From positions 1 to 40,443 of IMG/VR virus record IMGVR_UViG_3300034152_000992: a stretch of 40,443 bases of DNA, one strand, 5' to 3'. The notes beneath the pieces are model-generated. The model was not told where the DNA came from, made no database searches, and saw only the letters and a program-made list of their open reading frames with translations. This document shows, piece after piece, positions 3,592-37,687 of the stretch. This DNA is from a virus. The translations under genes were made by a program, and so were the position numbers. Position 1 is the first letter of the stretch. Every line of letters starts with the position of its first letter.

Positions 3592-4101
3592 ATGAGTGAT
3601 TTTTCATGGATTAAAGAAATTTGTGATGATCTAAATGCAGGTGATAGCTTTTTGGTAGGGTGGGTATTAGGGACTCTATACCATAAAGGAATTCCAAAAG
3701 TCACTTTAAGAGGCGCCTCGACCAGAATATTTTCAGACATTGTAACCCAATGTAAAAACGATACTTGGAGTCTCGAAAAGTTTATCCAAATCGAATTTGA
3801 GAAATTAGAGAAGTTGCTTTGGTATGGGTTATTTATTTTAGACGAGGAAGAGGTTGAAGCTGCCATAAAGCAGCTAAGTGGTGCTGAATTAAAATTAATC
3901 AATATGCCTACCGATGAGGTGGCCAAAGGTTTACCAGGATTAGAAATTGAAAAATACAATATTGTTGGGTATAGAAAATTAGAAGATGGTCAAGAAGACT
4001 ATTGTATCCAAAACAGGTCTCCAAACCCAACCATTAGGTATCTGCCAAGATCACCAGAGTTTACTCAGTGTATTGGTTTCAAACCAGTGAGGGAAGAATG
4101 A
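3592..4101 (+). CDS. Hypothetical protein, translationally coupled to RtcB
   Basis: This 169-residue soluble protein has no recognised motif. The first part is predicted helical and hydrophobic (GDSFLVGWVLGTLYHKG); an acidic patch follows near residue 84. Its stop overlaps the rtcB start as ATGA, so the two proteins are likely made in fixed ratio. Archease, the usual RtcB partner in cells, is a small acidic beta-rich protein. I see no archease signature here, so any partnership with RtcB is inference from position alone. The promoter at 3532 lies just upstream. Confidence 0.7.
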   Translation: MSDFSWIKEICDDLNAGDSFLVGWVLGTLYHKGIPKVTLRGASTRIFSDIVTQCKNDTWSLEKFIQIEFEKLEKLLWYGLFILDEEEVEAAIKQLSGAELKLINMPTDEVAKGLPGLEIEKYNIVGYRKLEDGQEDYCIQNRSPNPTIRYLPRSPEFTQCIGFKPVREE

Positions 4102-5453
4102 TTACTCTACAAGGAAAATATTGCAAAGCTACAATCCATTCCGGAGCAGTTGACAATAAAATTTTATCAGTCGTGACTGCTTACACTAACCATCCAGCAT
4201 TTACATATCCAATAGTGGTTATGCCGGATGTGCAGTATGGTGGAGATATGAAAAGTATGGTTGGTTTTACCATGCCTATGGGTCCAAAAATTGTTCCAAA
4301 TATCGTAGGCGGAGACCTCAGTTGTGGTGTGTCTGCTATAAACATAGGACCAGTCGAACGGTTTAAAATAGATCTCAAAGAATTGGATTTGAGAATTAGA
4401 GATGCTGTCCCGTTTGGTCAGAGAGTTCATGATAAGCCGATCGTAAAATATTCTGATTTTGATCAAAAAGGAGTTAAGGATTTTTGCAGACAGTTTACTA
4501 TGAAATATAATACCAAGTTTGAACACAGCCTGGCCATACCAAAGTATGACGAGGATTGGGTAGACAAAAAGTGTGTTGAGATTGGTATGAGTAAAGCCAG
4601 GATGCTTGCATCTATTGGAACTCTTGGCGGTGGTAATCACTTTATTGAACTTGGTATCAGCCAAAAGAATCAGGAGTTGTGGATAATAGTTCATTCCGGA
4701 AGTAGGCAGTTAGGTCAAAAGGTCTGTAAGTTCCACCAGAAGCGTGCCGTTAAACATAAAGAAAAGTTTCAGGATAATTATAAAACAGAATTGAAACGGC
4801 TGAAAACCAGATGTAAAAATGTAAAAGAGATACCTGGAAAAATTAGAGAATTAAAAGATAAATTAAGGGTATCTTTACCAAAAGGTTTAGAATACCTGGA
4901 AGCCGCAGATGCTATCAGTTACTGCCACGATTCGTTGTTTGCTCAGTACTATGCCAGGATCAACAGGCATACGATTCTGGAAAAAATAAGAGAACTAATA
5001 GCCGGGGATCTGGATGTAACGAAAACATCTTTGGACACTGTTCATAATTATGTAGATTTCTCAGACTTTGTGATCCGGAAAGGTGCGATATCTGCCAATA
5101 AAAATATGCCAGTCATCATTCCAATGAATTCCAAATTTGGTTGTATAATTGGTATGGGTCGTTCTAATCACGAATGGAATAACTCTGCGCCGCACGGTGC
5201 TGGTAGAGATTTTGGTAGAACAGATGCCAAAGAGAATCTTACCATGGATCAGTATGAAAAAGATATGGATGGTGTTTATTCCACAAGTGTTGTTCCAAAT
5301 ACATTAGATGAGTCTCCTGCAGCGTACAAAGATCCGGACACTATATTAGAGATGATAAAACCTACAATTCACATACTCGACACTGTTAAAGCCATCTACA
5401 ACGCCAAGGATAGTGGGCCAGCCAGAGTAATTAAGGACAAGAAAGAGACTTGA
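4098..5453 (+). CDS. rtcB: RtcB-like tRNA/RNA-splicing ligase
   Basis: This 451-residue protein belongs to the RtcB family, which joins 2',3'-cyclic phosphate or 3'-phosphate ends to 5'-hydroxyl RNA ends using GTP and Mn2+. The metal ligands are visible: GGDLSCG (D73, C76), GGGNHF (H181), VHSGSR (H199) and VHNYVDF (H316). The guanylylated histidine lies in SAPHGAGR (H366). The usual MPDVHxG motif reads MPDVQYG, with Gln for His. The ATG at 4098 overlaps the preceding stop as ATGA; an upstream in-frame ATG at 4068 is unlikely. In phages RtcB is thought to repair host tRNAs cut by anticodon nucleases. Length is typical. Confidence 0.93.
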   Translation: MITLQGKYCKATIHSGAVDNKILSVVTAYTNHPAFTYPIVVMPDVQYGGDMKSMVGFTMPMGPKIVPNIVGGDLSCGVSAINIGPVERFKIDLKELDLRIRDAVPFGQRVHDKPIVKYSDFDQKGVKDFCRQFTMKYNTKFEHSLAIPKYDEDWVDKKCVEIGMSKARMLASIGTLGGGNHFIELGISQKNQELWIIVHSGSRQLGQKVCKFHQKRAVKHKEKFQDNYKTELKRLKTRCKNVKEIPGKIRELKDKLRVSLPKGLEYLEAADAISYCHDSLFAQYYARINRHTILEKIRELIAGDLDVTKTSLDTVHNYVDFSDFVIRKGAISANKNMPVIIPMNSKFGCIIGMGRSNHEWNNSAPHGAGRDFGRTDAKENLTMDQYEKDMDGVYSTSVVPNTLDESPAAYKDPDTILEMIKPTIHILDTVKAIYNAKDSGPARVIKDKKET

Positions 5454-5510
5454 CGAAATGGGCCAAAAAAGGTTAAATAAATTGTTTTATCTAAAGGGAA
5501 TAGGTGCTTT

Positions 5511-5741
5511 ATGAGCTTATTCGAAACGCCTCTTAGCACAGATCTACACGTATGTCCTAAATGTGGGTCACATAAACTTTTAAATCGGTCTGTGTATGAA
5601 AAGAGGAAAATTATGTGCCCACCTACAGATTATAACGATGTATGCTGTGTCATGTGTGAGTTCAAAGGTAAGGCCCTACATGTGGCCAACAAGGAACCGG
5701 TACCGGAAAAACATATGATGTTTGCATTCCTATCCGGATGA
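5511..5741 (+). CDS. Small zinc-ribbon protein
   Basis: This 76-residue protein has CPKCGSHKL near residue 15 and a second CVMC pair near residue 46, plus an extra cysteine at each side. It is a classic CxxC-x(n)-CxxC zinc ribbon of rubredoxin-knuckle type. It sits between rtcB and the thymidylate kinase and reads in the same direction. The ribosome site is modest. Function unknown; a role in nucleic-acid or protein binding is plausible. Confidence 0.75.
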   Translation: MSLFETPLSTDLHVCPKCGSHKLLNRSVYEKRKIMCPPTDYNDVCCVMCEFKGKALHVANKEPVPEKHMMFAFLSG

Positions 5742-5775
5742 CATGATAAATTGATACGAAATTTTAGGAGGAATT

Positions 5776-6447
5776 ATGTTCCACATAGCGATTGAAGGGA
5801 ACGACTTCACTGGGAAGACTGTATTGTGGAGAGCGTTAAAAGATGAGTATGAGAAAGATGGTGTAATCTTCACCAGAGAACCTGGCAGCACTTTTGATAA
5901 GTTTTCACAAGATATCCGTGAAACTATTTTCCGGTATGGTGAGGATGTAGATCCTTATGCCAGACAGTTCGGTATGCTTACTTCCAGGATACAACAAGAC
6001 AGTAAACTAAAAGGACCGGTTGATTTTAAAGACCGTACTTATTGGAGTACAAGGAACTATTTTGCCAGAGATGTCCATAATGCAGAAGAATTGGCAGAGA
6101 TGGAAGATCTAATCATCCGTTTGATTAAAAAGGGAAAACTTACTCCTCCAAATATCCTTATTTATTTGACAGTATCTTTTGAGGAAGCTGTACGAAGAAA
6201 GACAGCTGTAGGACAAAGAGCGGATGATGATTTCATGGATGAAGCTGTTGGTATCAGGTCCATGTTCGAGGAAATGGATGAACTGTACAAAAACAGTATT
6301 GACTGGATGCGCAGTACCATGGAAGAACAGCATGTCTTTATGGAAATTAATACCAACGGAAAAACTACTGCCCAGATAATGGAACAGATCAAGCATGTCG
6401 TGATAGACAATATTCCGGATCTAAGGCGTGCTTTGATAGGTGCGTAA
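5776..6447 (+). CDS. tmk: Thymidylate kinase-like dNMP kinase
   Basis: This 223-residue P-loop kinase should phosphorylate dTMP to dTDP with ATP in the cytoplasm. Visible family motifs are the P-loop IEGNDFTGKT (residues 6-15), TREPGST (DRE-like motif near 35-41), a DR motif in FKDRTYWSTRNY, and a lid region around RRKTAVGQRADDD. TAGGAGG before the ATG at 5776 gives a strong start. It ends in a TAATG overlap with the RdgC-like gene. With ThyX and the thymidine kinase nearby, it completes a thymidine nucleotide pathway. Sequence is divergent, so substrate range may differ. Confidence 0.88.
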   Translation: MFHIAIEGNDFTGKTVLWRALKDEYEKDGVIFTREPGSTFDKFSQDIRETIFRYGEDVDPYARQFGMLTSRIQQDSKLKGPVDFKDRTYWSTRNYFARDVHNAEELAEMEDLIIRLIKKGKLTPPNILIYLTVSFEEAVRRKTAVGQRADDDFMDEAVGIRSMFEEMDELYKNSIDWMRSTMEEQHVFMEINTNGKTTAQIMEQIKHVVIDNIPDLRRALIGA

Positions 6448-7505
6448 TGAAGTTAGGCGCCTTTCGAAAATTCAAAGTCAATCACCTGGAAGGTTATATC
6501 GCAGACGCCGAAACAATTACTCTGCTACTTAATGATCACAGGTTTAATGAAAAGTTCGCACCACAAGACGTTACCAAGCATTTTGGGTGGGTGGTAAATC
6601 ACGACATCTGTGTGGAAAATATCACAGAAGATGCCGTATTTGACGATACCAGGGACATGGCATTACTCACACTTCGTATTGACACTAAATCAATTTCAAA
6701 AGAAGTTCTCAAATCAAAGGTAAAGAAACGGGCAAAAGAGTTAGAGGACGAAGGCATAAAGGTCACAAAACTGAAAATGGCAGAGATTAATGATGCTTTG
6801 TCCAGACAACTTTTAAAAGAGGCAAAGCCCAGGTCTGCATCATTGAGAGCGTTGTGGGATATTCCAGATAAGTCAGTATATGTTCAGTCCAGTTCAAACT
6901 CTGCAGTCGATACCTTAACTGAACAGTTCCGGAAAACTTTCAATATGCATTTGAAGCGGTGCAGTTTAAGAGATGACCTTGAAACAACAGATAAGGAGAC
7001 ATCTGATAACACCAGAATAGAGGCCCAGTTGATAAAGGCTTTTTGTTATTATCTGGTATTCAATTGTGTGGAGACACAATTTGCTGCAGAGTTAAACGGT
7101 ATGACTTTGGAACTGGATTCCAGAATAGATTTTGAAAAGGATCGTGGAGATAAAAAAGCCATCTTTATCAGTTCCGATTTGGATGAAAGAGAATTAATTA
7201 AATTTATGTTTAATGACTACGATATTAAACAGCTTGGGTTTTGCCTTAATACCAAACAAAACCACCAAGTTTATTTTATTTTTGATCCATTTCTTCTTTC
7301 TTTTAAGACTGTAGAGTTCAATGGTTTTAACTGGGATGATGAAGAGACGATCTTCACAAAATGTAACCATACGCAGGATGTTTATAAATCTTTATTCAAT
7401 ATAATCACAAAATTATTTACCCGGTTTGTATTATTAAAAAATGATCAAACGGCGTATCAAAGGTACACAGAAAGGTTGCAGGATTGGTTCACTATTATAC
7501 AGTAG
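6447..7505 (+). CDS. RdgC-like recombination-associated protein
   Basis: The 352-residue protein matches the RdgC pattern along its length. Near the N-terminus it has strand-rich sequence, then FGWV (residue ~47) as in RdgC. A segment on LLTLRIDTK, a helical LE-EGIKVTKLKMAEIND block, and an LL-EA-PR stretch follow. After residue 200 comes the DLDERELIKFMFN segment that corresponds to the second half of RdgC rings. RdgC proteins form ring dimers on dsDNA and modulate RecA. A phage copy could control recombination or protect ends. The start is a TAATG overlap with tmk. Identification is from remembered family pattern, not a search. Confidence 0.7.
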   Translation: MKLGAFRKFKVNHLEGYIADAETITLLLNDHRFNEKFAPQDVTKHFGWVVNHDICVENITEDAVFDDTRDMALLTLRIDTKSISKEVLKSKVKKRAKELEDEGIKVTKLKMAEINDALSRQLLKEAKPRSASLRALWDIPDKSVYVQSSSNSAVDTLTEQFRKTFNMHLKRCSLRDDLETTDKETSDNTRIEAQLIKAFCYYLVFNCVETQFAAELNGMTLELDSRIDFEKDRGDKKAIFISSDLDERELIKFMFNDYDIKQLGFCLNTKQNHQVYFIFDPFLLSFKTVEFNGFNWDDEETIFTKCNHTQDVYKSLFNIITKLFTRFVLLKNDQTAYQRYTERLQDWFTIIQ

Positions 7506-7513
7506 GTTCAGAG

Positions 7514-7768
7514 ATGAAGAGGCGGCATAAAGATATCTACGCTAATGGATTGCCGGTATCAGATAATGAGTTGACAAGAAAACATGCAAGTAAAAAAGGT
7601 AAATGCAAGTTCTGGCGTTTCCATGAATGTGAAGAACATGAGTATTGCCTTTACGCAAAAAATAGAGTTATGTGCCACGCTGTGAATGATAAGTGTGTCT
7701 TTTGGGGTGAGCACATGGGTAACGATGGAACATTAAATTTAAACTCAGAGGAGCTATTATGGGACTAG
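7514..7768 (+). CDS. Small cysteine/histidine-rich protein
   Basis: This 84-residue protein has cysteines and histidines spaced CKFWRFHECEEHEYC, then CHAVNDKCVFWGEH, suggesting one or two zinc sites of mixed Cys/His type. The ATG at 7514 is chosen over an upstream in-frame start at 7484 because the longer form would overlap rdgC more and has no better ribosome site. Its end overlaps the thyX start by 10 nt. Function unknown. Confidence 0.65.
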   Translation: MKRRHKDIYANGLPVSDNELTRKHASKKGKCKFWRFHECEEHEYCLYAKNRVMCHAVNDKCVFWGEHMGNDGTLNLNSEELLWD

Positions 7769-8628
7769 AAAAAGGTGCAGTACCTATTACGGCAATAATG
7801 CCGCATTGTGAATTTCCGGACGGACCAATCAACGGAGCAGATATCCTGTTGCGATTAGAGAGACGGGCAAGGACATGTTACAAATCTGAAGGTAAAATAA
7901 AACCAGGGTCAGATATTACACTTATTAAGAAAATTCTAAAGCTGGGCCATATCAGTATTTTTGACCATATTCAATTATCTGTAAAAGCAATTTACGACAG
8001 ATCCGCCAGTCACCAACAAGTTCGACATAGAGTAGGCGCGGCGTATGCCCAGGAAAGCCAGAGATATTGTAACTATGACAACCGTGGGTTACAAATAATT
8101 TATAATAAAGAGACATGTATGGGTGTAAGTCTGGATGAAATCAATGAATTCATCATTGATTCTTATCATGAATTCACTCAGTCAAACAGTTATGCATTGT
8201 CAAATTACCCAATGCGTAAAAAAGGGAAAGAGTGGCCAAAGAGACTGATCTATTGGTTGGAAGCAATTTTTGTGGCCAATATGAAGTATAAAGCTCTCAT
8301 TGGTGAGAAAGTCAAAGCAGAAGACGCCAGATCAGTCCTACCGAACGCAACTAAAACAGAAGTGGACATCACTTACGATCTGACAGAATGGCGCCATGTA
8401 TTTAGAGACCGTGCGTTAAACCAATTTGCTCAATGGCAGATCAGAGGTTGTATGCAACAAGCCTTAGTATGGTTTGCTTGTCAACTTCCAATAGTATTTG
8501 ATGATTTGGTTATGGAATTAATGGGTAAGCCAGATCTAGTGGAACCACTTTTCATTAATGATGCGTGGTTGGTACAGATGTTTGAGCACGCAAATGTTCA
8601 TCCGGAAACTGTAAAGATAGCATTCTAA
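7759..8628 (+). CDS. thyX: Flavin-dependent thymidylate synthase ThyX
   Basis: This 289-residue enzyme makes dTMP from dUMP using methylene-tetrahydrofolate, FAD and NAD(P)H. The ThyX signature is visible as RHRVGAAYAQESQRY (R89-H90-R91, S100). The usual spacing is RHR-x7-S; here eight residues separate RHR from the serine. Other ThyX-like elements are ISIFDH near the N-terminus (family: H at the FAD site) and an arginine-rich C-terminal half ending in REWR-like segments (LTEWRHVF, WQIRGCMQQAL). GAGGAG upstream supports the ATG. It overlaps the next start as TAATG. Confidence 0.92.
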   Translation: MGLEKGAVPITAIMPHCEFPDGPINGADILLRLERRARTCYKSEGKIKPGSDITLIKKILKLGHISIFDHIQLSVKAIYDRSASHQQVRHRVGAAYAQESQRYCNYDNRGLQIIYNKETCMGVSLDEINEFIIDSYHEFTQSNSYALSNYPMRKKGKEWPKRLIYWLEAIFVANMKYKALIGEKVKAEDARSVLPNATKTEVDITYDLTEWRHVFRDRALNQFAQWQIRGCMQQALVWFACQLPIVFDDLVMELMGKPDLVEPLFINDAWLVQMFEHANVHPETVKIAF

Positions 8629-22042: not shown

Positions 22043-23467
22043 ATGCCAGACTACCCTATCAGTAATATAGTCACGGCTAAAATAATTGGCCAGGAAGAGG
22101 ACTATATACCAGGTAAACATCCTGGCTCACAACAAATAGAAGATCCCTTTGCTGGGGTTGGGGCAATAGCAGGTGTTAAAATATTAGAACCAGAAGCAGA
22201 TCCAACATTGTGGATTGATATGTTGACTGCCAACACTAGGTTAAATTCTATCACCAGGGCAATTGCCCGTATGACCGTTGGGCTTGGGTACGATATTGTT
22301 CAGAAGATTCCGGACTGGGAAAAAGGTAAGATAAACGAAGAGTTACTTCTGTGGGAACACCAGAGGGTGGCGGAATTGTTTGCCAACCCAAATGGAGAGT
22401 ACTCTACTACTGAGTTATTTTTCAGGTCTATGTATGACGAGCAAGCGATTGGAAACTCGTTCATAGAAGTTGTTCCACAAAACAAATTGTCTTCATCCGG
22501 GTTGGCAGATGTAGCAGGAATACGACATGCGCCTGGACATACTATCAGAAAGACAAAAGATGATCCTGGGTTTGTTCAAGTTAGAAGTGGTCGTTACGCA
22601 TTTTTCAAAATGTTCAGTGACGAAAGAGTATTTAGCGTTCAGTCCGGCCAAGAAGAAGTTTTGACAGATCCTACAAAACGCGCCAACGAGATGATCCACT
22701 TCCATAGTTACAGCCCTTTTGATGATCACTATGGAGTACCAAAATATGTAGCCTCAACCAATGCTATTGCTGGTAACAGGTTACAAGGTAGTTGGAATGT
22801 GAAGTTCATTCAGAACAATGCTCATGTTCCTTATGCTGTTATCGTAGAAAACGGGACATTGGATAATCGTTCAATGCAATACATTGAAACTTTTATCAAT
22901 AAGAGAAGCAAAGGTCCGGATAATTCTGGTCGTCTTCTTTTGTTACAAGGTGCAATTTCAAAAGGTTCACCAAAAGCCGATCCTGTTACAATTCGATTGG
23001 TACCTCTCAATATAGGTAACCAAGAGGATGCGTCATTTCTCAGATACAGGGAGGCTAATGATGAAGAAATTAGAGAGGCCTTCAATTTCAGTCTCGTCAA
23101 CTTGGGTACAACTAAAGATGTCAATAAAGCGGTTGCTATCATTACTCGCAGAATTACTATTGAGCAAATAATTGAACCGGAAGCAGCTAATAAAGAAGAA
23201 GAGATATTCAATACCATCATTAAAAGGTTGGGCGTCAAGTATACCAGGATCAGATTCAGAAGACCACAGACAATTGATTATCTTGAAGCATCTAATGTCA
23301 TTGAAAAGTTGGCCAAGTCTGGCGCATTCGGTATAAATGATATCCGGAGATATGCGTCTGAGCAATTGGGTTTCAATTTTGATGAGAAGCCTGGTGGTAT
23401 CTATAACATTCCATTTAAAATTTTAGATTTTCTAGCGAAATATTTAAAAGAATTCGGGGGCGAATAA
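22043..23467 (+). CDS. Portal protein
   Basis: The 474-residue protein forms the dodecameric ring through which DNA enters the head. It fits the portal family by position after the terminase and by motifs such as ELFFRSMYDEQAIGNSFIEV (wing), MIHFHSYSPFDDHYGVPKYV (typical H-x3-P-x4-YG-x3 segment), and the long helix rich in charged residues before residue 330. AGGGG seven nucleotides before the ATG supports the start. It ends in a TAATG overlap with the large fusion gene, so translation is coupled. It resembles HK97/PBSX-type portals. Confidence 0.87.
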   Translation: MPDYPISNIVTAKIIGQEEDYIPGKHPGSQQIEDPFAGVGAIAGVKILEPEADPTLWIDMLTANTRLNSITRAIARMTVGLGYDIVQKIPDWEKGKINEELLLWEHQRVAELFANPNGEYSTTELFFRSMYDEQAIGNSFIEVVPQNKLSSSGLADVAGIRHAPGHTIRKTKDDPGFVQVRSGRYAFFKMFSDERVFSVQSGQEEVLTDPTKRANEMIHFHSYSPFDDHYGVPKYVASTNAIAGNRLQGSWNVKFIQNNAHVPYAVIVENGTLDNRSMQYIETFINKRSKGPDNSGRLLLLQGAISKGSPKADPVTIRLVPLNIGNQEDASFLRYREANDEEIREAFNFSLVNLGTTKDVNKAVAIITRRITIEQIIEPEAANKEEEIFNTIIKRLGVKYTRIRFRRPQTIDYLEASNVIEKLAKSGAFGINDIRRYASEQLGFNFDEKPGGIYNIPFKILDFLAKYLKEFGGE

Positions 23468-26400
23468 TGTCAAATTTTGATCTCTTGAATAAACATATTC
23501 GTATTCACAATCAGTTCCAAAAATCAAAAGACCCTTCATTGGTAAAAGAGCACCAGGTGATCAGGGAGTTGATGGAAAAGGAAGGATTTATCCATGATCC
23601 ACAGGATGAATTGGACGAATTGTGTAATGCTGAAAGTATGCCTGAAAAAAATATGGAAATGAATAAACTCAGTTTAAGTAAGTTGAGTCATTCCCATTTA
23701 TTAGCACACCACTTCTGGCATGGTGCATCCCCGATGAATTGGACCAAGAAAGACATAGCCAAATTCCATACTGATATTGTGACAGAATTAGAAAAGCGTG
23801 GATCTTCACACAAAAATGTTGATACCTTAGATTTAACCAAAGAACATCACGATCCGGATGAAGATAAAAATAAACAAGAGAAATCTACTATAAACCTAAG
23901 CGAAGTCCTCTCTTGTTTAACCGGAGACTTTAAAGTTCATAAGGATTATGTTTGTTTGGTTGGCGATCTGGTGAAAAGTGGAGAATCCAAAAAAGGATTG
24001 GATATTTGGATAAAGGGTGAAGATCTTCCTGCAGATGTAAAATCTATTTTGGAATACAGGATAACGAAAGCCTTACCACCTTCTGTTCAAAGTAAAGTAA
24101 ATTTTATTTATGATCAGACAAGTTTTGAGAAAAGCAACACTTATGTCCCTTTGTTTGACATGGCATTTATACGGACAAACCAAGAGAACAAATCTGTCGA
24201 ACTGCAGGCAGACGAATTTGATACTTTAAAACGATTCATCACACCGGAAGCATATGAGAAAAGCGTTACATTAAAAGATGGGATGCACGCACCAGATGCG
24301 GTGTATAAAGATGAAAACAGGCAGCTAATGGACGCCGTGGTTGAGTACTTCACCGGTGACGATATTGCAAAAGGTATTTTTGTTTCCAAAAAAGTCGATG
24401 GGATTCTTGTAAAATTTTCTTATATTAATGGTAATACTACCATTTTTTCAGAAGATGGATTGAATGTTACTCATCGGTTTGGCAAAGTGGTCAAGGATTT
24501 AAAATCGGTATGTGAGGAGCGCGGTATCAATAAATTTGTTGGTGAAGGTTTCATCGATTTTTGGGAAAAGAAATCAAGAAGTCATATGCACAAAGATTTC
24601 ACCAAGAATTATGCAAAAGGCGAAGACACGCCAGACGATACTGGCGCAGTATTGTCGGTCTTCAATGTATTAGATCTTGTGCAAAACAAAACAGCATATG
24701 AAGGTTTAGCCAGCAAGAGTGAGGATATTCGGCAGAATGTTTTACAACTTTTAGAATTGCCTTCATCTGATATAAACCCACCTGCGGAAAAATCGATTAA
24801 TTACCTACCAGTCCATAAAGTGGATACCGAAAAAGATTTGATATCTACTGGAAAACGGTTGGCAAAGTTGTGTGGATCTGAAGGTGCAATCTTCCGGAAA
24901 ACTGATTCAACCTATGGAGAGGATGGGTCAAGTTGCCAGGTAAATAATACTACAGTATTGGCTGTGAAGGTACTGGAAGTTAAGTCAATTAATGATGAGT
25001 ATTCCAGGTATACTTTTTCAGATGATGGGATCAACCCGTCTGGCATCACTAATAAAACAAAGGTAGTGGCAGATAAGAAAGATATCATTGAAATTGAAGT
25101 TGAAAAAATTAATAATGTCGTTACCAATAAAGTCCATAAATTATTCTATGAAAATCCGAGAGTCTTAAAAAAGTTAGACAGAGATAAACCAGATACATCT
25201 TCAGCTATTATTGGCAAGTCCAAGCGGGACAAAACATATAACGAAAAACAAATCACAAACGGGAAAGCCAATTACACGTTGAAGTCTAACAGTGTATATG
25301 AGTCTTATTTCCCACAAACTTTATTAAAATTAAATGGCCATTTGGAATCCATGGGATTTGATAAAGACACCACAATTAAATTCCAGAAATTTAATGAGGA
25401 TGAAAATTCAGAGATCGTTATTGTGGAAGGTATGGATGTGACAGAAAACTTCCGTCTAACAAAAGATGGTTTTTCAGACGCACTGAAACCAATGCCAAGT
25501 AACAGTGAGATCGCTATCCAATTGGACCAAGATGTTAACCCAAAGGTGGAGGAGCCTACAGCTGAGTTCACGGATGAACTGAGTGACGCAATCATTGCTA
25601 TGGCTGTTAAGTCAAATGAGTCTTTGAGCTTGTTGCGCAAAGGCCGTATGGCCAAAGGGTTAGAAAATTTCCCTGATATAGCTATACTTCCTGAAGACCT
25701 TAAGACTGTGAACGAGGGTGGTGTAGATTACGCATACAGTTCAGAAGGTGATTTTAAAGTTGCCATAGATTACAAAAAAGAAATCGATAAAGATATGGCT
25801 GTCAAACGGTCATCTGTCGATCGTATAATTTGGGATGGGGTAGAGAAGTATTACCAGTACGAATTTGGCCCATGCACCATTTGCAAAAACATTTATATGG
25901 TTTCTCCAGAACCTGGTAAAAAATACCAATTTGTTGCCCAGTATCATGCCAGAGGTAAATCGATTCACAACGATATCCGGATGGAAACCAATGGTAAAAA
26001 TTTAATCGGTTGGACACTTAATACTCAGATTGCCGGTGCAGTAAAAGAACCAATCACAAAATTATCCAAATTGAAAGAGATCATTAAAGGTGGCCATAAG
26101 TTTAATAAAATAGATTTTAATAATGGCGCCTGGGTAAAACGGAGAACTGTCAAAGGTGATCCACTTGATGCAGAGATTATGTGTGAGAAGAAACCGGAAA
26201 TTCCACATGCCTGGTTAACTGTAGAAGGGGATGATTTTAATGCCGGTAGTACAAAGAACAATCCGGCCGTGTTTGCCATAGCAGATAAAGGAAATGTTGA
26301 GTATCTTGCACAAAAGAATGTTGCTCACGAGTATATGTTTGCTGGTAAAGGTTTAAATTATAGAGTCCTGTTTAGACGCCTTGGAACAGAAGCATTTAAG

Positions 26401-26769
26401 TTTTTAATTAAAAACAGATCTTTGATGGATAGTATCCAAAAAAGGATTATGGATGACGATCTTGATGAGTACATTGTTAGTACAGCTAAAGCAAAAGAGT
26501 TGCCTGCTGCTGAACAAAATGACTTACGTGGCGACTATGCTTGGTTGGTAATTAAACCAAAAGAACAAAGTCCGTATGTATTGTCTTCCAGAGCCAAGTC
26601 TAAAGGATGGGTACCAGACCACGGAGTATCAGCATTGCCTTCTAAAATAGAGAAGAAAGTTCCAGACAGATTCAAGTACTGGAATATTGAAGACGCCAGT
26701 GAGAGAAAGTCCACACGCGACGCTTTATTAGAAGCCATCCAAAACAAGGAAGTTACCCTCCCAAAATAA
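23467..26769 (+). CDS. Nucleotidyltransferase-like/ATP-dependent ligase/LigD-phosphoesterase-like fusion
   Basis: This 1100-residue protein combines several DNA-end-processing folds. Residues 80-112 contain HHFWHGASPMNWTKKDI. Residues 155-235 look like a minimal nucleotidyltransferase (LVGDLVKSGESKKGLDIWI), but the second acidic residue is not evident. Residues 300-510 carry ligase motifs: KVDG with catalytic K309, FVGEGF, EGAIFRK (472-478) and K501/K506 of motif V. An OB-like region ends near PRVLKKLDRDKPD. Residues ~815-1000 match the LigD 3'-phosphoesterase pattern, with HARGKSIHNDIRME (H827, H834, D836, R838). The start overlaps the portal stop as TAATG. Its role in a head module is unknown; sealing or cleaning DNA ends during packaging is an inference. 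Confidence 0.8.
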   Translation: MSNFDLLNKHIRIHNQFQKSKDPSLVKEHQVIRELMEKEGFIHDPQDELDELCNAESMPEKNMEMNKLSLSKLSHSHLLAHHFWHGASPMNWTKKDIAKFHTDIVTELEKRGSSHKNVDTLDLTKEHHDPDEDKNKQEKSTINLSEVLSCLTGDFKVHKDYVCLVGDLVKSGESKKGLDIWIKGEDLPADVKSILEYRITKALPPSVQSKVNFIYDQTSFEKSNTYVPLFDMAFIRTNQENKSVELQADEFDTLKRFITPEAYEKSVTLKDGMHAPDAVYKDENRQLMDAVVEYFTGDDIAKGIFVSKKVDGILVKFSYINGNTTIFSEDGLNVTHRFGKVVKDLKSVCEERGINKFVGEGFIDFWEKKSRSHMHKDFTKNYAKGEDTPDDTGAVLSVFNVLDLVQNKTAYEGLASKSEDIRQNVLQLLELPSSDINPPAEKSINYLPVHKVDTEKDLISTGKRLAKLCGSEGAIFRKTDSTYGEDGSSCQVNNTTVLAVKVLEVKSINDEYSRYTFSDDGINPSGITNKTKVVADKKDIIEIEVEKINNVVTNKVHKLFYENPRVLKKLDRDKPDTSSAIIGKSKRDKTYNEKQITNGKANYTLKSNSVYESYFPQTLLKLNGHLESMGFDKDTTIKFQKFNEDENSEIVIVEGMDVTENFRLTKDGFSDALKPMPSNSEIAIQLDQDVNPKVEEPTAEFTDELSDAIIAMAVKSNESLSLLRKGRMAKGLENFPDIAILPEDLKTVNEGGVDYAYSSEGDFKVAIDYKKEIDKDMAVKRSSVDRIIWDGVEKYYQYEFGPCTICKNIYMVSPEPGKKYQFVAQYHARGKSIHNDIRMETNGKNLIGWTLNTQIAGAVKEPITKLSKLKEIIKGGHKFNKIDFNNGAWVKRRTVKGDPLDAEIMCEKKPEIPHAWLTVEGDDFNAGSTKNNPAVFAIADKGNVEYLAQKNVAHEYMFAGKGLNYRVLFRRLGTEAFKFLIKNRSLMDSIQKRIMDDDLDEYIVSTAKAKELPAAEQNDLRGDYAWLVIKPKEQSPYVLSSRAKSKGWVPDHGVSALPSKIEKKVPDRFKYWNIEDASERKSTRDALLEAIQNKEVTLPK

Positions 26770-26891: not shown

Positions 26892-28712
26892 ATGGGATAC
26901 TTTAATAATGTCGAATTCAAGATAGAGGTACCGTTCCAAAAGAGCGCAATCCTCAAAGAAAGTCGTGAATTCGAGGGAGAAGGTTTTCCGGAAGATTTGC
27001 CCCCAGGTTCAAGAGTAATTGAAGGGTATGCTTCGACAAAAGATCTCGACTACCAAGACGACATCGTAACCGAAAAAGCCCTTAATAAAATCGTTGAATT
27101 CCTTAAAACAAACCGTACAATGCTCCATAATCACGATCTTGATAATGCCATTGGTCGGGTTGTTGATACAAAATTGACTGATGAAGGTGCTTGGATCAAG
27201 GGTTTAATCTCTTCCACAGAGGATAAAATTTGGACCAAGGTTCAGGAAGGAATCCTCAACAAGTTTTCAATCGCTGGTAAGATCACAAAAGCTGAAGAAG
27301 TTTGGGATGCGACTGCTAAAAAATATGTCCGTCACATTCTTGATTTGGAAATTTACGAAGTTTCTCTGGTAAGTGTTCCTGCCAATGCCAAAGCTCGCGC
27401 AATCAAGTATTACATTGTTAAATCACTTGACGATCATGTGAAAGATAATTATAGAAAAACAAATTCACCAGTCGAATTCGTGAGTCCAATCGTAAAATTT
27501 AAAGAAAATGAAAATGGTGGTTTGGACATTACTACCTGGTCAACTGCAGACAAATCAGAAATTTCTGCAGCTACCAAATTTGTAATGGAAAAATCCAACA
27601 ATATGAACGGATGTCCAATACTGTTTAAGAACAGTGTAATTGGTAAAGTCAATAATATCGTCTCCAAAGGCGATGGGTTCGGAATTGAGGCTACCATTTC
27701 GAGAACAGAAACAGAAGCTGTTCAAAAGGTTCAAGAAAGAATTTTGACTTCCGTTGGTATTAACAGTAATCTGGTTGTTCAAAAGAACCTCACTTCTGAC
27801 GAAAGCGAACTTGTGAACTTCTTGGCAGATGGTATTGAGTTACGTTCAGTGCCTCTGACTAAGGCGCAGATGCTTGACGCCACAATTAGGAAACAATTCG
27901 ATATAAGTAAGTTTAATAAAGGAGACGATTCTATGAAAAAGGAAGAATTACAGAAAAAATTAAACACTCTCCTAAAGGAATACAACGACACGTCAGGCGA
28001 AAACCTGCAGCTTGTTGACAAGGGAGAGGGAGGAGATTCCTCAAAAGGATGTGACGATCCTGAAAACAAAGAGGATAAAACCCAAACACCACCAGCCGAA
28101 GGTGATGGTGGAGCTTCTAAAGCGGAAGGCGAAGGCCAACCACCTGAAGAAGATCCCAACAAAAAACCCGAAGAAGAGGAAGGCGGCATGAAAGAATTAT
28201 CCACAAAAATGGATAATATGATCGAAGCCGTTAACAATTTAGCAGCCACTTTGGCAGGTAAAGCAGCCAGCGAAGAAGGTGACGATGGTGATGGTGATGG
28301 TGAAACACCTCCAGCAGAACCACCTGCACCAGCCGAAGCTGACAAAAATAAAACTTCAGATGCCCAGAAAAGCATTGAAGCAAAAGTTGAAGCGTTGACC
28401 AAAACTGTTACAGACGCACTATCCAAATTCAATGGTGGGTCAAGTAGCAGTAAAGAGCAATCTCCACTGGAAAAGAAATTAGCGACATTGGAAAAAGGTA
28501 TCGCTGAGATTCAAAAACTTTCTGGCGTTTCCCAGGTTCAGAAAGGTAACGAATCCGGAACTACCATTCCCAATTCACCCGAAGATGTAACCACTGCAAA
28601 ACCGACTGGCGGAAAGAAAGAAGGTGAGTCCACGGCAATCTCCGATCAAGACTTTGACGCTTTTGGCGGTTTACTGCTTGGAAAATACGGAAAAGCTGAA
28701 GACAAAAAGTAA
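26892..28712 (+). CDS. Prohead protease with pseudo-protease repeat and scaffold domain
   Basis: Residues 40-175 are an HK97-type prohead protease, with VIEGYASTKD, LHNHD (H79/H81), FSIAGK (S126) and a VSLVSVPANAKARAI end. Residues 210-336 look like a second, decayed copy: VIGKVNNIV ... EATISRTETEAVQKVQERIL aligns with AIGRVVDTK ... GLISSTEDKIWTKVQEGIL, but the His and Ser positions are lost. Residues 348-606 are an acidic, Pro/Glu-rich scaffold with predicted coiled coils. AAGGAG at 27918 and ATG 27933 allow separate scaffold expression. The protease cleaves scaffold and capsid proteins during maturation. No strong ribosome site precedes ATG 26892. Confidence 0.85.
   Translation: MGYFNNVEFKIEVPFQKSAILKESREFEGEGFPEDLPPGSRVIEGYASTKDLDYQDDIVTEKALNKIVEFLKTNRTMLHNHDLDNAIGRVVDTKLTDEGAWIKGLISSTEDKIWTKVQEGILNKFSIAGKITKAEEVWDATAKKYVRHILDLEIYEVSLVSVPANAKARAIKYYIVKSLDDHVKDNYRKTNSPVEFVSPIVKFKENENGGLDITTWSTADKSEISAATKFVMEKSNNMNGCPILFKNSVIGKVNNIVSKGDGFGIEATISRTETEAVQKVQERILTSVGINSNLVVQKNLTSDESELVNFLADGIELRSVPLTKAQMLDATIRKQFDISKFNKGDDSMKKEELQKKLNTLLKEYNDTSGENLQLVDKGEGGDSSKGCDDPENKEDKTQTPPAEGDGGASKAEGEGQPPEEDPNKKPEEEEGGMKELSTKMDNMIEAVNNLAATLAGKAASEEGDDGDGDGETPPAEPPAPAEADKNKTSDAQKSIEAKVEALTKTVTDALSKFNGGSSSSKEQSPLEKKLATLEKGIAEIQKLSGVSQVQKGNESGTTIPNSPEDVTTAKPTGGKKEGESTAISDQDFDAFGGLLLGKYGKAEDKK
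27920..27935 (+). promoter_or_regulatory. Internal ribosome site for nested scaffold
   Basis: AGGAG (27920-27924) lies eight nucleotides before an in-frame ATG at 27933 inside the protease gene, exactly where the protease part ends and the scaffold part begins. It is stronger than the site at the gene's own start. Confidence 0.7.
27933..28712 (+). CDS. Nested scaffold protein (in-frame, internal start)
   Basis: Translation from the internal ATG at 27933 gives a 259-residue protein identical to the C-terminal part of the protease fusion. It begins MKKEELQKKLNTLLKEYN and is acidic, Glu/Pro/Gly-rich in the middle, with predicted coiled coils near residues 90-120 and 165-200 and a hydrophobic FGGLLLGKYG end. 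The arrangement copies lambda C/Nu3, where the scaffold is made from an internal start in the protease gene. The scaffold guides capsid assembly and is then removed. Separate expression is predicted, not shown. Confidence 0.65.
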   Translation: MKKEELQKKLNTLLKEYNDTSGENLQLVDKGEGGDSSKGCDDPENKEDKTQTPPAEGDGGASKAEGEGQPPEEDPNKKPEEEEGGMKELSTKMDNMIEAVNNLAATLAGKAASEEGDDGDGDGETPPAEPPAPAEADKNKTSDAQKSIEAKVEALTKTVTDALSKFNGGSSSSKEQSPLEKKLATLEKGIAEIQKLSGVSQVQKGNESGTTIPNSPEDVTTAKPTGGKKEGESTAISDQDFDAFGGLLLGKYGKAEDKK

Positions 28713-28731: not shown

Positions 28732-28769
28732 CAGGCAAAAAAGTAAATAACATATTATTGGAGGAAAAG

Positions 28770-30125
28770 ATGTCAATAGGACAAAATCAAGAAACCATTC
28801 AGAAGACCTTAGAGTCCAGCGCACTGTTTTCCGGTGGTGAACTTCAGCCGAAACAGTTCGACAAATTTGTAGAAAATGTTAAAGCCCTGTCCAACATGAT
28901 CAAATATATCAGAACGGTCAAGATGGATAGAGCCAAAATGGAAATCGACAAACTGAACATTTCAGAACCGATCACCAGATCTGCCTCTGAAAATGTTCCG
29001 CCAGTTTGGGCAGAAGGGTCCAGTCCCCTGTTCAGCAAATTGGAACTTTCCACCAACAAGATTACCAGTTTCTGGTCAATCACCTGGGAAACTCTCAAAG
29101 ATAATATCGAAAGAGAGAAATTGGAAAGAACCATTATGCGTGGTTTCCAAACCAAAATGGCAGAGGATTTCGAAAATCTGGCTATTAATGGTGACACAAC
29201 TTATTCAAAAACTTCCGCTATCCCAAGTGAAAGACTTTGGGCGATTGATGACGGCTGGTATAAAATGTCTTTATCCGGTCATGTTGTTGATGCTCGTGGT
29301 CATGAAATTTCTTATGAGCTTTTTGAATCCACTATCCGCAGAATGCCGGAACAGTATGCTCAAGATCCCAATGTTCAATGGATCATGAACCGTTTCTGTA
29401 TCTTGGATTGGGTATCCATCCTTGCTCGCCGTGGCGATGTTGGAGCAAAAGTTTTGGAAAACGGAGCAATCGACAGACCTATCCTGGGTTATCGTGTAAT
29501 TCCCGCTCCATTGATTCCTGCAAATATGCCTCTGAGTCTCCCATCCACTACTCTGACACCAGGGTTCCACGATGGTAAGAGAATCGGACCTTTCACCTTT
29601 GCAAGCAATGCCAAGACATTGAAACTTGACATTGATAACAAAGGGGCCGTAACCATCACACTTCCGGTTGCCACATGGCAGACTCCTGAAGTTGCTCGTT
29701 ACATCAACCAGGCAATTGCAGCTGACGCAAATTATACCGCAGCACCAGAATATCACAGTGTTGCAAAAGCTGATGCAGCTGGCCGCCTTATCATTGTATC
29801 TCCTACAACTGGATCAACTTCTGAAGTTGATGTTCAGGCAGTAGCAGATGATGCTTACACAATCCTCGGATTGACAGTAGGTGTTTTTGCAGGTACCGAC
29901 GGTACAACTGCAGGTACAGTGAACGAAGGTACTTTCTTGTGGTTCGCAAATCCGATGAACTTCATCGTTGGTTTGGAACAACGAGTTCGCTTCTACACTG
30001 AATACAAGAAAGACTACGATCGTTTTGAATTCGTAGCATACAATTTCTTGGATTTCCAGATTGAAGAAGTTGACAAACTCGTTGTCTGCAAGAACATCCG
30101 CAAGAAACAGTTCAGCACTTATTAA
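28770..30125 (+). CDS. Major capsid protein
   Basis: The 451-residue protein is placed right after the protease-scaffold gene, as in HK97-fold phages. GGAGG precedes ATG 28770; the in-frame TTG at 28758 is upstream of the ribosome site. The first 90 residues include helices and ITRSASENVPPVWAEGS, followed by core segments such as AEDFENLAINGD and VQWIMNRFCILDW (P-domain-like). Residues ~270-372 are an inserted beta-rich domain, then the chain returns to the core (FLWFANPMNFIVGLEQRVRF ... VVCKNIRKKQF). The insert resembles a part of the protein at 33393. No signal or cysteine motif. Confidence 0.87.
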   Translation: MSIGQNQETIQKTLESSALFSGGELQPKQFDKFVENVKALSNMIKYIRTVKMDRAKMEIDKLNISEPITRSASENVPPVWAEGSSPLFSKLELSTNKITSFWSITWETLKDNIEREKLERTIMRGFQTKMAEDFENLAINGDTTYSKTSAIPSERLWAIDDGWYKMSLSGHVVDARGHEISYELFESTIRRMPEQYAQDPNVQWIMNRFCILDWVSILARRGDVGAKVLENGAIDRPILGYRVIPAPLIPANMPLSLPSTTLTPGFHDGKRIGPFTFASNAKTLKLDIDNKGAVTITLPVATWQTPEVARYINQAIAADANYTAAPEYHSVAKADAAGRLIIVSPTTGSTSEVDVQAVADDAYTILGLTVGVFAGTDGTTAGTVNEGTFLWFANPMNFIVGLEQRVRFYTEYKKDYDRFEFVAYNFLDFQIEEVDKLVVCKNIRKKQFSTY

Positions 30126-35305: not shown

Positions 35306-37687
35306 ATGGGTTTTCTATGGACAGGCGGATCAGGAGTAAGCATCTCCGGGTTTCAGCAAACACCGATTACCCGAGGTGGAACTTCTTCGCCAATTATGAA
35401 AAGTACAACCAGAGGAGGTTTGATAATGGAGACTAGATATCCAGGTTTATATTTCTTCGAAACTGAAGGTTCTCCATCAGTTGTCGCAGCCGGAGTCTCA
35501 ACAGCAGGATTTGTAGTTAGAACGAAAACCGGTACTCATTTGAGTCCGATTTATTGTGGCAATTGGGAAATATACCAACAGAATTTCGCAGGGCTATTGG
35601 AGGATAACGACTATGGCCCACTCTCAGTAAAGGCTTTCTTCGATGAGGGCGGTTCAGGATGCTACGTTGGTAGAGTAGTTGGTGCAAACGCCAAATACAC
35701 ATCTACTAAAGGCGGTATCAAATCTTTTGATGACATCAATGTCGATGCCAATGCTTTTGATCCAGACAGTGCTACACAGGACCAAGGATTAAAAGATTGT
35801 GGTGGTATCTCAACACCACTTACAACCGAAGGTGTTCAAGACCTTATCGGTTTGGCAGGTATTTTTGTCGGTGATGAGTTGAATGAGTACAAAGCTCATA
35901 CTCTCAAAGGCATCGGTAAATTAAAAACTGCTTTGGCGTCAGCCGACGATGTTACTGAAATGGAAGTTTATGACAATGACACCCGTCAGTTTGAAAAAGG
36001 TGATCTTGTCATCCTTTCTGCCAACAAACCTGATATGTTGGCACAATCTCCAGATACACCAATTGATCTGGACAGTGATATTTATTACATGGCATGTGTC
36101 AAAGAAGTTGATCATACCAGCAATAAATTGAAAATAATTAAACAGGATCTGGCGGCACTTCCAGCTGACACTTATGTGTACACAGCTACTCAGCACCTGG
36201 CCAGAACCAAAACCACTGCAGACCTGACACTAACTGCGGCAGGATCAAACGGATACATGATGGTAGAAAATGTTACCAATATCCGCAAAGGCTCCATGTT
36301 GTTGGTTTTCGGTAGCAAAGATGTGAGCACTGAAATTTGGTTTACAGTGATTGTCGAAAAAATCAGTGGAAACAAAGTGTACTTTAAAACTGATTTCGGC
36401 ACAGGTGTTTCCCACTATACAACTGGTGGTGGTAATCCACATTCAGTTGATTTGTTACTGTCCGGAGCAGATGTAATTTCCTTGGAATTCGGATTGCTTT
36501 TAACTTCCCCAGATGGTGTAACAGATTACGAATACAGCAATCTGTCAATTATCCCATCAAACATGAAAGCATATTTCCCAAGAATTCTTTCTGGTCCAGC
36601 AAACCAATCTCCGGTAGCCCAGGCAATCGATCTGGAATCTGAAAATTTGCTGCAACCAGCAGAATGGTTGGCAGATCCGGCAAGCCCGGCAAACTATACA
36701 GAGTATGTTTTGCACCTGGCGTTGCCATTCCCAATCACCAATGTAGAATTAACTGGCGGTGACGCAGATGACGCCGCACTAGGTGCAAGCGATTATGTTG
36801 GGGCAGTGGATTCATACGGAAACGCCACAGGTCTTCATCTGTTTGATCGTTTGACAGACATCAACTTCTTTGCAATCCCGGCATTGAATGGTCAAGTGGC
36901 ATCTCTGAAAGCTGCTAACACAAAATGTGAGTTGTTGAAAGACAGACAGTTTATCACTTCTTGTCGTTCAACTGATCTGACTGCACAGTTGGCCAAACAG
37001 TATCATCAAGAAATTTTGAACCTCCCATCCAAATACACATCAGTATATTGGCCATGGTTGAAAATGTCTGATCCTTTCAACGAAGGTCAGGTTGTTGATT
37101 TACCACCTGATGGTCATATGGCTGGTATGTGGTCAAGAATTCGGGCGTCACTTGGTGTCCATAGAGCACCTGCAAACTTTGCCTTGAATACCCCGATCGG
37201 AGTAACCAAGAAAGTTGATGACTCTGACATGGCCATGTTGAATCCGATAGGTGTTAACTCTATCGTTTGGTTTGATGGTAAAGGTATCAGACCATTCGGT
37301 CAAATGAATAACCACCCTGCACAGGATGGTAAAGAGACCATTGGCGCCATCGCAACCCAGACATTTATTGTCTCATCTTTAAAACGGTCTTTGTTGGATT
37401 ACTGCTTCAGACCGATTAATCAGACTTTGTTTGATGACATCACCTACGCAGTAAGAACCTTCATGTATGAGGAACTTCACAAACAAGGTGCTTTTTACCC
37501 ACAAAGCGCACCTGCTGATGCTTTCTTCGTAAAATGTGATCGGTCCACAACATCTGACAATGATGTGGCCAACAAACGGGTAATTTGTAAATGGGGTTTC
37601 AGACCTGCTCCTGGCGCAGAGAAGATCATCTTTATCGGAACGATCTTCACTAACTTGAGACAGGTTGAAATCGCTTTAGCAGCTTAA
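35306..37687 (+). CDS. Tail sheath protein
   Basis: This 793-residue (or 753-residue) protein forms the contractile tail sheath. The C-terminal region matches the sheath family: VNSIVWFDGKGIRPFGQ, an ITYAVRTFMYEELHKQGAFY segment, and ADAFFVKCDRST before a final FIFIGTIFTNLRQVEIALAA-like strand. The N-terminal YPGLYFFETEG is the usual start of sheath proteins. ATG 35426 has a perfect AGAGGAGG (35411-35418), suggesting it as the real start; ATG 35306 has only AGGGG. I keep the longer frame because its 40 extra codons are open and in phase. The middle carries a large beta-rich insertion. Confidence 0.88.
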   Translation: MGFLWTGGSGVSISGFQQTPITRGGTSSPIMKSTTRGGLIMETRYPGLYFFETEGSPSVVAAGVSTAGFVVRTKTGTHLSPIYCGNWEIYQQNFAGLLEDNDYGPLSVKAFFDEGGSGCYVGRVVGANAKYTSTKGGIKSFDDINVDANAFDPDSATQDQGLKDCGGISTPLTTEGVQDLIGLAGIFVGDELNEYKAHTLKGIGKLKTALASADDVTEMEVYDNDTRQFEKGDLVILSANKPDMLAQSPDTPIDLDSDIYYMACVKEVDHTSNKLKIIKQDLAALPADTYVYTATQHLARTKTTADLTLTAAGSNGYMMVENVTNIRKGSMLLVFGSKDVSTEIWFTVIVEKISGNKVYFKTDFGTGVSHYTTGGGNPHSVDLLLSGADVISLEFGLLLTSPDGVTDYEYSNLSIIPSNMKAYFPRILSGPANQSPVAQAIDLESENLLQPAEWLADPASPANYTEYVLHLALPFPITNVELTGGDADDAALGASDYVGAVDSYGNATGLHLFDRLTDINFFAIPALNGQVASLKAANTKCELLKDRQFITSCRSTDLTAQLAKQYHQEILNLPSKYTSVYWPWLKMSDPFNEGQVVDLPPDGHMAGMWSRIRASLGVHRAPANFALNTPIGVTKKVDDSDMAMLNPIGVNSIVWFDGKGIRPFGQMNNHPAQDGKETIGAIATQTFIVSSLKRSLLDYCFRPINQTLFDDITYAVRTFMYEELHKQGAFYPQSAPADAFFVKCDRSTTSDNDVANKRVICKWGFRPAPGAEKIIFIGTIFTNLRQVEIALAA
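35411..35428 (+). promoter_or_regulatory. Strong ribosome site at an internal sheath ATG
   Basis: AGAGGAGG (35411-35418), seven nucleotides before ATG 35426, which starts YPGLYFFE-like sheath sequence. It is stronger than the site at 35306 and may mark the true start. Confidence 0.7.

Follow-up and report, generated by a model that had tools for sequence, protein, structure and literature searches.

A second, inactive S78-like domain between the protease and scaffold of a prohead protease gene

The window analysed here, a 40,443-bp IMG/VR virus record from a contractile-tailed virus, contains a prohead protease gene in which the protease is followed by a second domain that, by sequence comparison, is homologous to the S78 proteases. 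A sequence-only reading had proposed a catalytically dead protease-like domain between protease and scaffold, and this is supported both by profile homology and by the loss of catalytic residues. The domain lies immediately upstream of a putative internal start from which the scaffold would be made separately, and we lean towards a role for it as a partner of the protease in the same chain.

Organization of the gene and its neighbours

The gene and its first domain are laid out as follows.

26892..28712, + strand: whole gene (ORF, PF04586), 606 aa, comprising S78 protease, pseudoprotease domain, acidic linker and scaffold
27006..27437, + strand: active S78 protease domain, residues 39-182, with the invariant His, Ser and Glu kept
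27132, 27267 and 27357: catalytic codons of the first domain, for His81, Ser126 and Glu156 respectively

Residues 42-171 match PF04586 (Peptidase_S78) with an E value of 2e-11 and 44.7 bits, above the cut-off of 21, and the first domain matches phrog_80 with an E value of 1.6e-24; against the HK97 equivalog TIGR01543 the protease scores 50.4, under that model's cut-off of 59. Across the family His81 and Ser126 are conserved in 229 of 229 relatives and Glu156 in 228 of 228, and all three are kept in the window. The profile match, together with the His, the Ser and the invariant acidic residue, places the first domain within S78.

The neighbouring genes to which we refer below are these.

22043..23467, + strand: portal protein, clustering with the L292/L323 and L293/L346 portals
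23467..26769, + strand: 1100-aa ATP-dependent ligase-like and putative LigD 3'-phosphoesterase-like protein, a conserved neighbour
28770..30125, + strand: HK97-fold major capsid protein, directly after the protease-scaffold gene
35306-37687: tail sheath, 793 aa

For the capsid gene an ATG start at 28770, preceded by GGAGG, is likelier than a TTG at 28758, and, relative to the capsid proteins of phages Faust and Peregrin, its product has about 130 additional aa inserted near residues 258-390. The LigD-like assignment rests on motif resemblance and on a weak Pfam match in L168. This gene is placed between the portal and protease genes of the window, and related proteins recur beside head genes in L168, L173, L175, L243 and L276-L322, with a homologue also present in the archaeal virus ANMV-1 (L004). 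The tail sheath matches that in the contig of L292 only at residues 35-132 and 470-776, and its middle thus looks like a variable insertion. Elsewhere in the window, positions 4068-8628 contain genes for an RtcB RNA ligase and for thymidylate kinase-like, RdgC-like and ThyX proteins.

Homology and inactivation of the second domain

27462..27926, + strand: second, inactive S78-like domain, residues about 191-345, with a profile-supported core at residues 237-311

The repeat that had been noticed between residues 86-130 and 249-293 is ungapped, with an offset of 163 and 16 identities in 45 positions, and Smith-Waterman self-alignment of the first and second regions gives a score of 62, compared with 32.1±5.6 for shuffled sequences, none of 1000 of which reaches 62. 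A profile of relatives that excludes the window scores 17.8 bits against the second region (best of 500 shuffles, 10.0), and a larger prohead-protease profile of 229 relatives, built without the window, L292 and L293-L295, scores 21.4 bits (best of 1000 shuffles, 9.9). With HHalign, S78 relatives match the second region at 94% with a score of 48, the best of 150 shuffles reaching 21. The predicted loss of the His and Ser positions is likewise borne out, with the His column falling on K246-N247-S248 or on a gap and the Ser replaced by Gly288 (codon 27753); no equivalents of the His, Ser and Glu are in register anywhere within the second region. Since it lacks the His and Ser, the second copy is a pseudoprotease rather than a protease. 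A further suggestion, that an IEL-SVPL stretch matches the end of the protease core, is weaker, as it requires a 4-residue gap and the profile does not recover it; the profile match fades near residue 311-316, and the homology of the last strand is thus unproven.

An origin of the second region outside the proteases, with the similarity arising by convergence or chance, would fit its weak match to a tail-fibre PHROG (E 0.003) and the lack of any Pfam S78 match to this region alone at E values up to 1. Three methods nevertheless exceed their shuffles widely, and we regard the tail-fibre match as a chance one, the family being outside the 25 PHROGs matched by the majority of sequence set A8; we consider a non-protease origin very improbable. 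For the second domain, AlphaFold given the single sequence produced an unusable model (pLDDT 35), and the A8 sequence profile found no solved relative. Two leucine-rich-repeat constructs that it did match were disregarded, as only 41 positions were covered.

Tandem relatives and the age of the second domain

Single-query searches of IMG/VR with the whole protein, the capsid protein or the ligase gene recovered zero relatives, and the second domain alone found none in phage records; relatives were recovered by searching with alignments and with the neighbouring ligase domain. A scan of IMG/VR with the neighbouring ligase/phosphoesterase domain identified 47 loci, among which two viruses (L292 and L293/L295) have the window's order of protease, second domain, acidic linker and scaffold; a viral scan by portal added no further tandem viruses. 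The second domains of L292 and L293 are alike (score 228) and lack the inter-strand helix; in place of the protease's NHD they have NSD or NSM, and neither catalytic residue remains. Combined into a profile of two sequences, they match S78 by HHalign at 90% with a score of 40.5 (column shuffles at most 18), and the L292 domain alone scores 6.3 bits, a value equalled or exceeded by 2 of 1000 shuffles. The portal, ligase and capsid protein are common to the window, L292 and L293/L295, a tail sheath match is also present in the contigs of L292 and L293, and in a portal tree the window and the L292/L293 viruses form one clade with support of 100/99 and long branches; the window does not group with L292/L293 in a tree of first domains. 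Direct comparison of the window's second domain with those of L292 and L293 gives similarity no greater than that of shuffles, and thus it is from their position and from the neighbouring genes and portal tree that we infer a common origin for the second domains of the window, L292 and L293/L295.

We also surveyed 252 non-redundant S78 protease tails from IMG/VR, GTDB and phage records, and only in L305/L306, L317 and L174 did the S78 profile score above all shuffles; second domains like the window's are rare in this set, and single-domain relatives manage without one. These three cases (L174:5740-8472, L305/L306:7525-9978 and L317:7576-10005) each combine in one chain two protease domains that look intact and belong to different families, with a long acidic spacer between them, and their second protease domain matches head maturation protease PHROGs and the Microbacterium phage Magritte scaffolding protein.

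The second domain had been described as simply a decayed copy of the gene's own protease, a description we cannot uphold, as, among 232 relatives ordered by their similarity to it, the window's first domain comes only 13th. At the DNA level nothing beyond short chance matches is found between the two domains, and with neither a close similarity rank nor a remaining DNA repeat, a recent duplication within the gene is unsupported. Two further viruses, both diverged, have an inactive S78-like domain in this position, which indicates that the domain is old, and it looks retained rather than decaying. It might instead be a selectively neutral relic, left by a domain duplication long ago and tolerated since the frame stays open, and the lost catalytic residues, the rarity of such domains among the 252 tails and the high divergence of the window copy from those of L292 and L293 all accord with this. 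Against a relic are a codon-position composition like that of the first domain, a still recognisable S78 core pattern, the occurrence in three diverged viruses, and a putative ribosome-binding site and ATG still in place downstream, and we judge this explanation to be improbable.

A predicted internal start for the scaffold

27919..27924, + strand: Shine-Dalgarno (SD) sequence AAGGAG, 8 nt upstream of an in-frame ATG
27933..28712, + strand: predicted nested scaffold ORF of 259 aa from the ATG of Met348 (SD-ATG, with equivalents in L292 and L293)

Met348 is immediately past the second domain, in the context AATAAAGGAGACGATTCT-ATG, and the ORF that it opens encodes the acidic linker, coiled-coil-like stretches and a C-terminal tail, FGGLLLGK. 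L292 (Met313) and L293 (Met340) each have AAGGAG 6 nt upstream of an ATG that follows the second domain as in the window, so that an SD-ATG is found in this position in all three tandem proteins. Of the 143 internal ATGs within genes of the window, just 4 are preceded by an SD of 6 nt or longer, and an SD of this length occurs in 38 of 227 proteins where synonymous codon shuffles predict 13. An SD of at least 5 nt is present at the boundary of domain and scaffold in 21 of the 25 closest non-redundant relatives, and in 20 of the 23 single-domain proteins among them (the 25 minus L292 and the double-protease L174) it is accompanied by an ATG 0-24 residues past the active domain. The gene therefore has the feature by which nested protease/scaffold genes are recognised, an in-frame internal start with a putative ribosome-binding site at the boundary. 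A KSxWxG-like tail ends the scaffold in 72 of 107 relatives (compared with 6 of 1365 control stretches), and FGGLLLGK may be a divergent form of it.

From the location of these signals after the second domain we predict a nested scaffold product that lacks the dead domain; the internal start probably makes scaffold alone, and this favours a role for the domain as a partner of the protease.

Proposed role of the second domain

A prohead protease has to be kept inactive until shell assembly is finished, and the basis of this timing is poorly understood. We give a slight preference to a model in which one gene yields two in-frame products and the dead domain is a cis partner of the protease. The long product would consist of the active S78 protease, the dead S78-like domain and the scaffold, and the short product, translated from Met348, of scaffold alone; co-assembly through the scaffold tails would recruit the long form to the core of the procapsid. 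There the dead domain, a partner supplied within the same chain, would position the active domain, switch it on or keep it in check until shell completion, when the dead domain would be destroyed together with the scaffold. As only the protease-bearing form would carry the dead domain, its most likely target is the protease in cis, and the regulatory or dimer-partner role suggested by the sequence-only reading becomes more likely given an internal start after the domain. A narrower proposal, which we advance tentatively and with less than even confidence, is that the active and pseudo copies form a pair within one chain, the dead copy serving as obligate activator or safety catch of the live one, with scaffold supplied separately from the internal start.

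The domain could also serve a structural purpose, docking the long form to the capsid, portal or core, and have no control over proteolysis. Its location between protease and scaffold would suit such a function, as would the fact that single-domain relatives dispense with it, but in all three tandem proteins the internal start keeps it out of the predicted bulk scaffold; docking limited to the long form may still occur, but overall we view docking as unlikely. With an active and a dead copy paired in one chain and the scaffold predicted to be separate, the effect of one fold upon the other that the partner model envisages would be testable by simple domain deletion.

Comparison with known systems

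Nested protease/scaffold genes include C/Nu3 of lambda, I/Z of Mu and UL26/UL26.5 of the herpesviruses, and in these, as predicted here for the window, scaffold is produced from a start codon that lies inside the protease gene and in its frame. The window differs from them in that a dead protease-like domain precedes the internal start, and would therefore be carried by the long form only. Also comparable are the HK97-type prohead proteases (MEROPS S78, PF04586) and their fusions to scaffold, for example Streptomyces phage Faust gp26 (Stanwilliamsviridae). The window and the Faust-type genes share a first domain in which His, Ser and Glu are present, an acidic scaffold after it and an HK97-fold capsid gene directly downstream, whereas no second S78-like domain is seen in Faust or Peregrin.

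The nearest precedent that we found is in phage SPN3US and its giant-phage relatives, which encode a diverged prohead-protease paralogue, gp117, as a separate gene, an arrangement that was unprecedented to its discoverers' knowledge (PMC5694885). Like the second domain of the window, gp117 is a diverged second homologue without an aligned catalytic His in a genome that also has an intact protease, but its kin are of the phiKZ (S80)/T4 type, its Ser and Asp are still aligned, and it is fused to neither protease nor scaffold. Herpesvirus assemblin, which is activated by dimerization (PMC4498786), is similarly a protease within a protease-scaffold protein, and it is the control of its activity by the pairing of protease folds that we liken to the window; assemblin, however, is a homodimer of active copies in trans, whereas the window would pair an active and a dead copy in cis. 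The T4 protease gp21 is pentameric, not dimeric (PMC9958956). In a literature search conducted mostly outside subscription journals we found no precedent for a tandem-fused pseudoprotease. The S78 protease, the fused scaffold and the nested start are thus of known kinds, and what is new is the in-cis order of protease and pseudoprotease, kept in three viruses.
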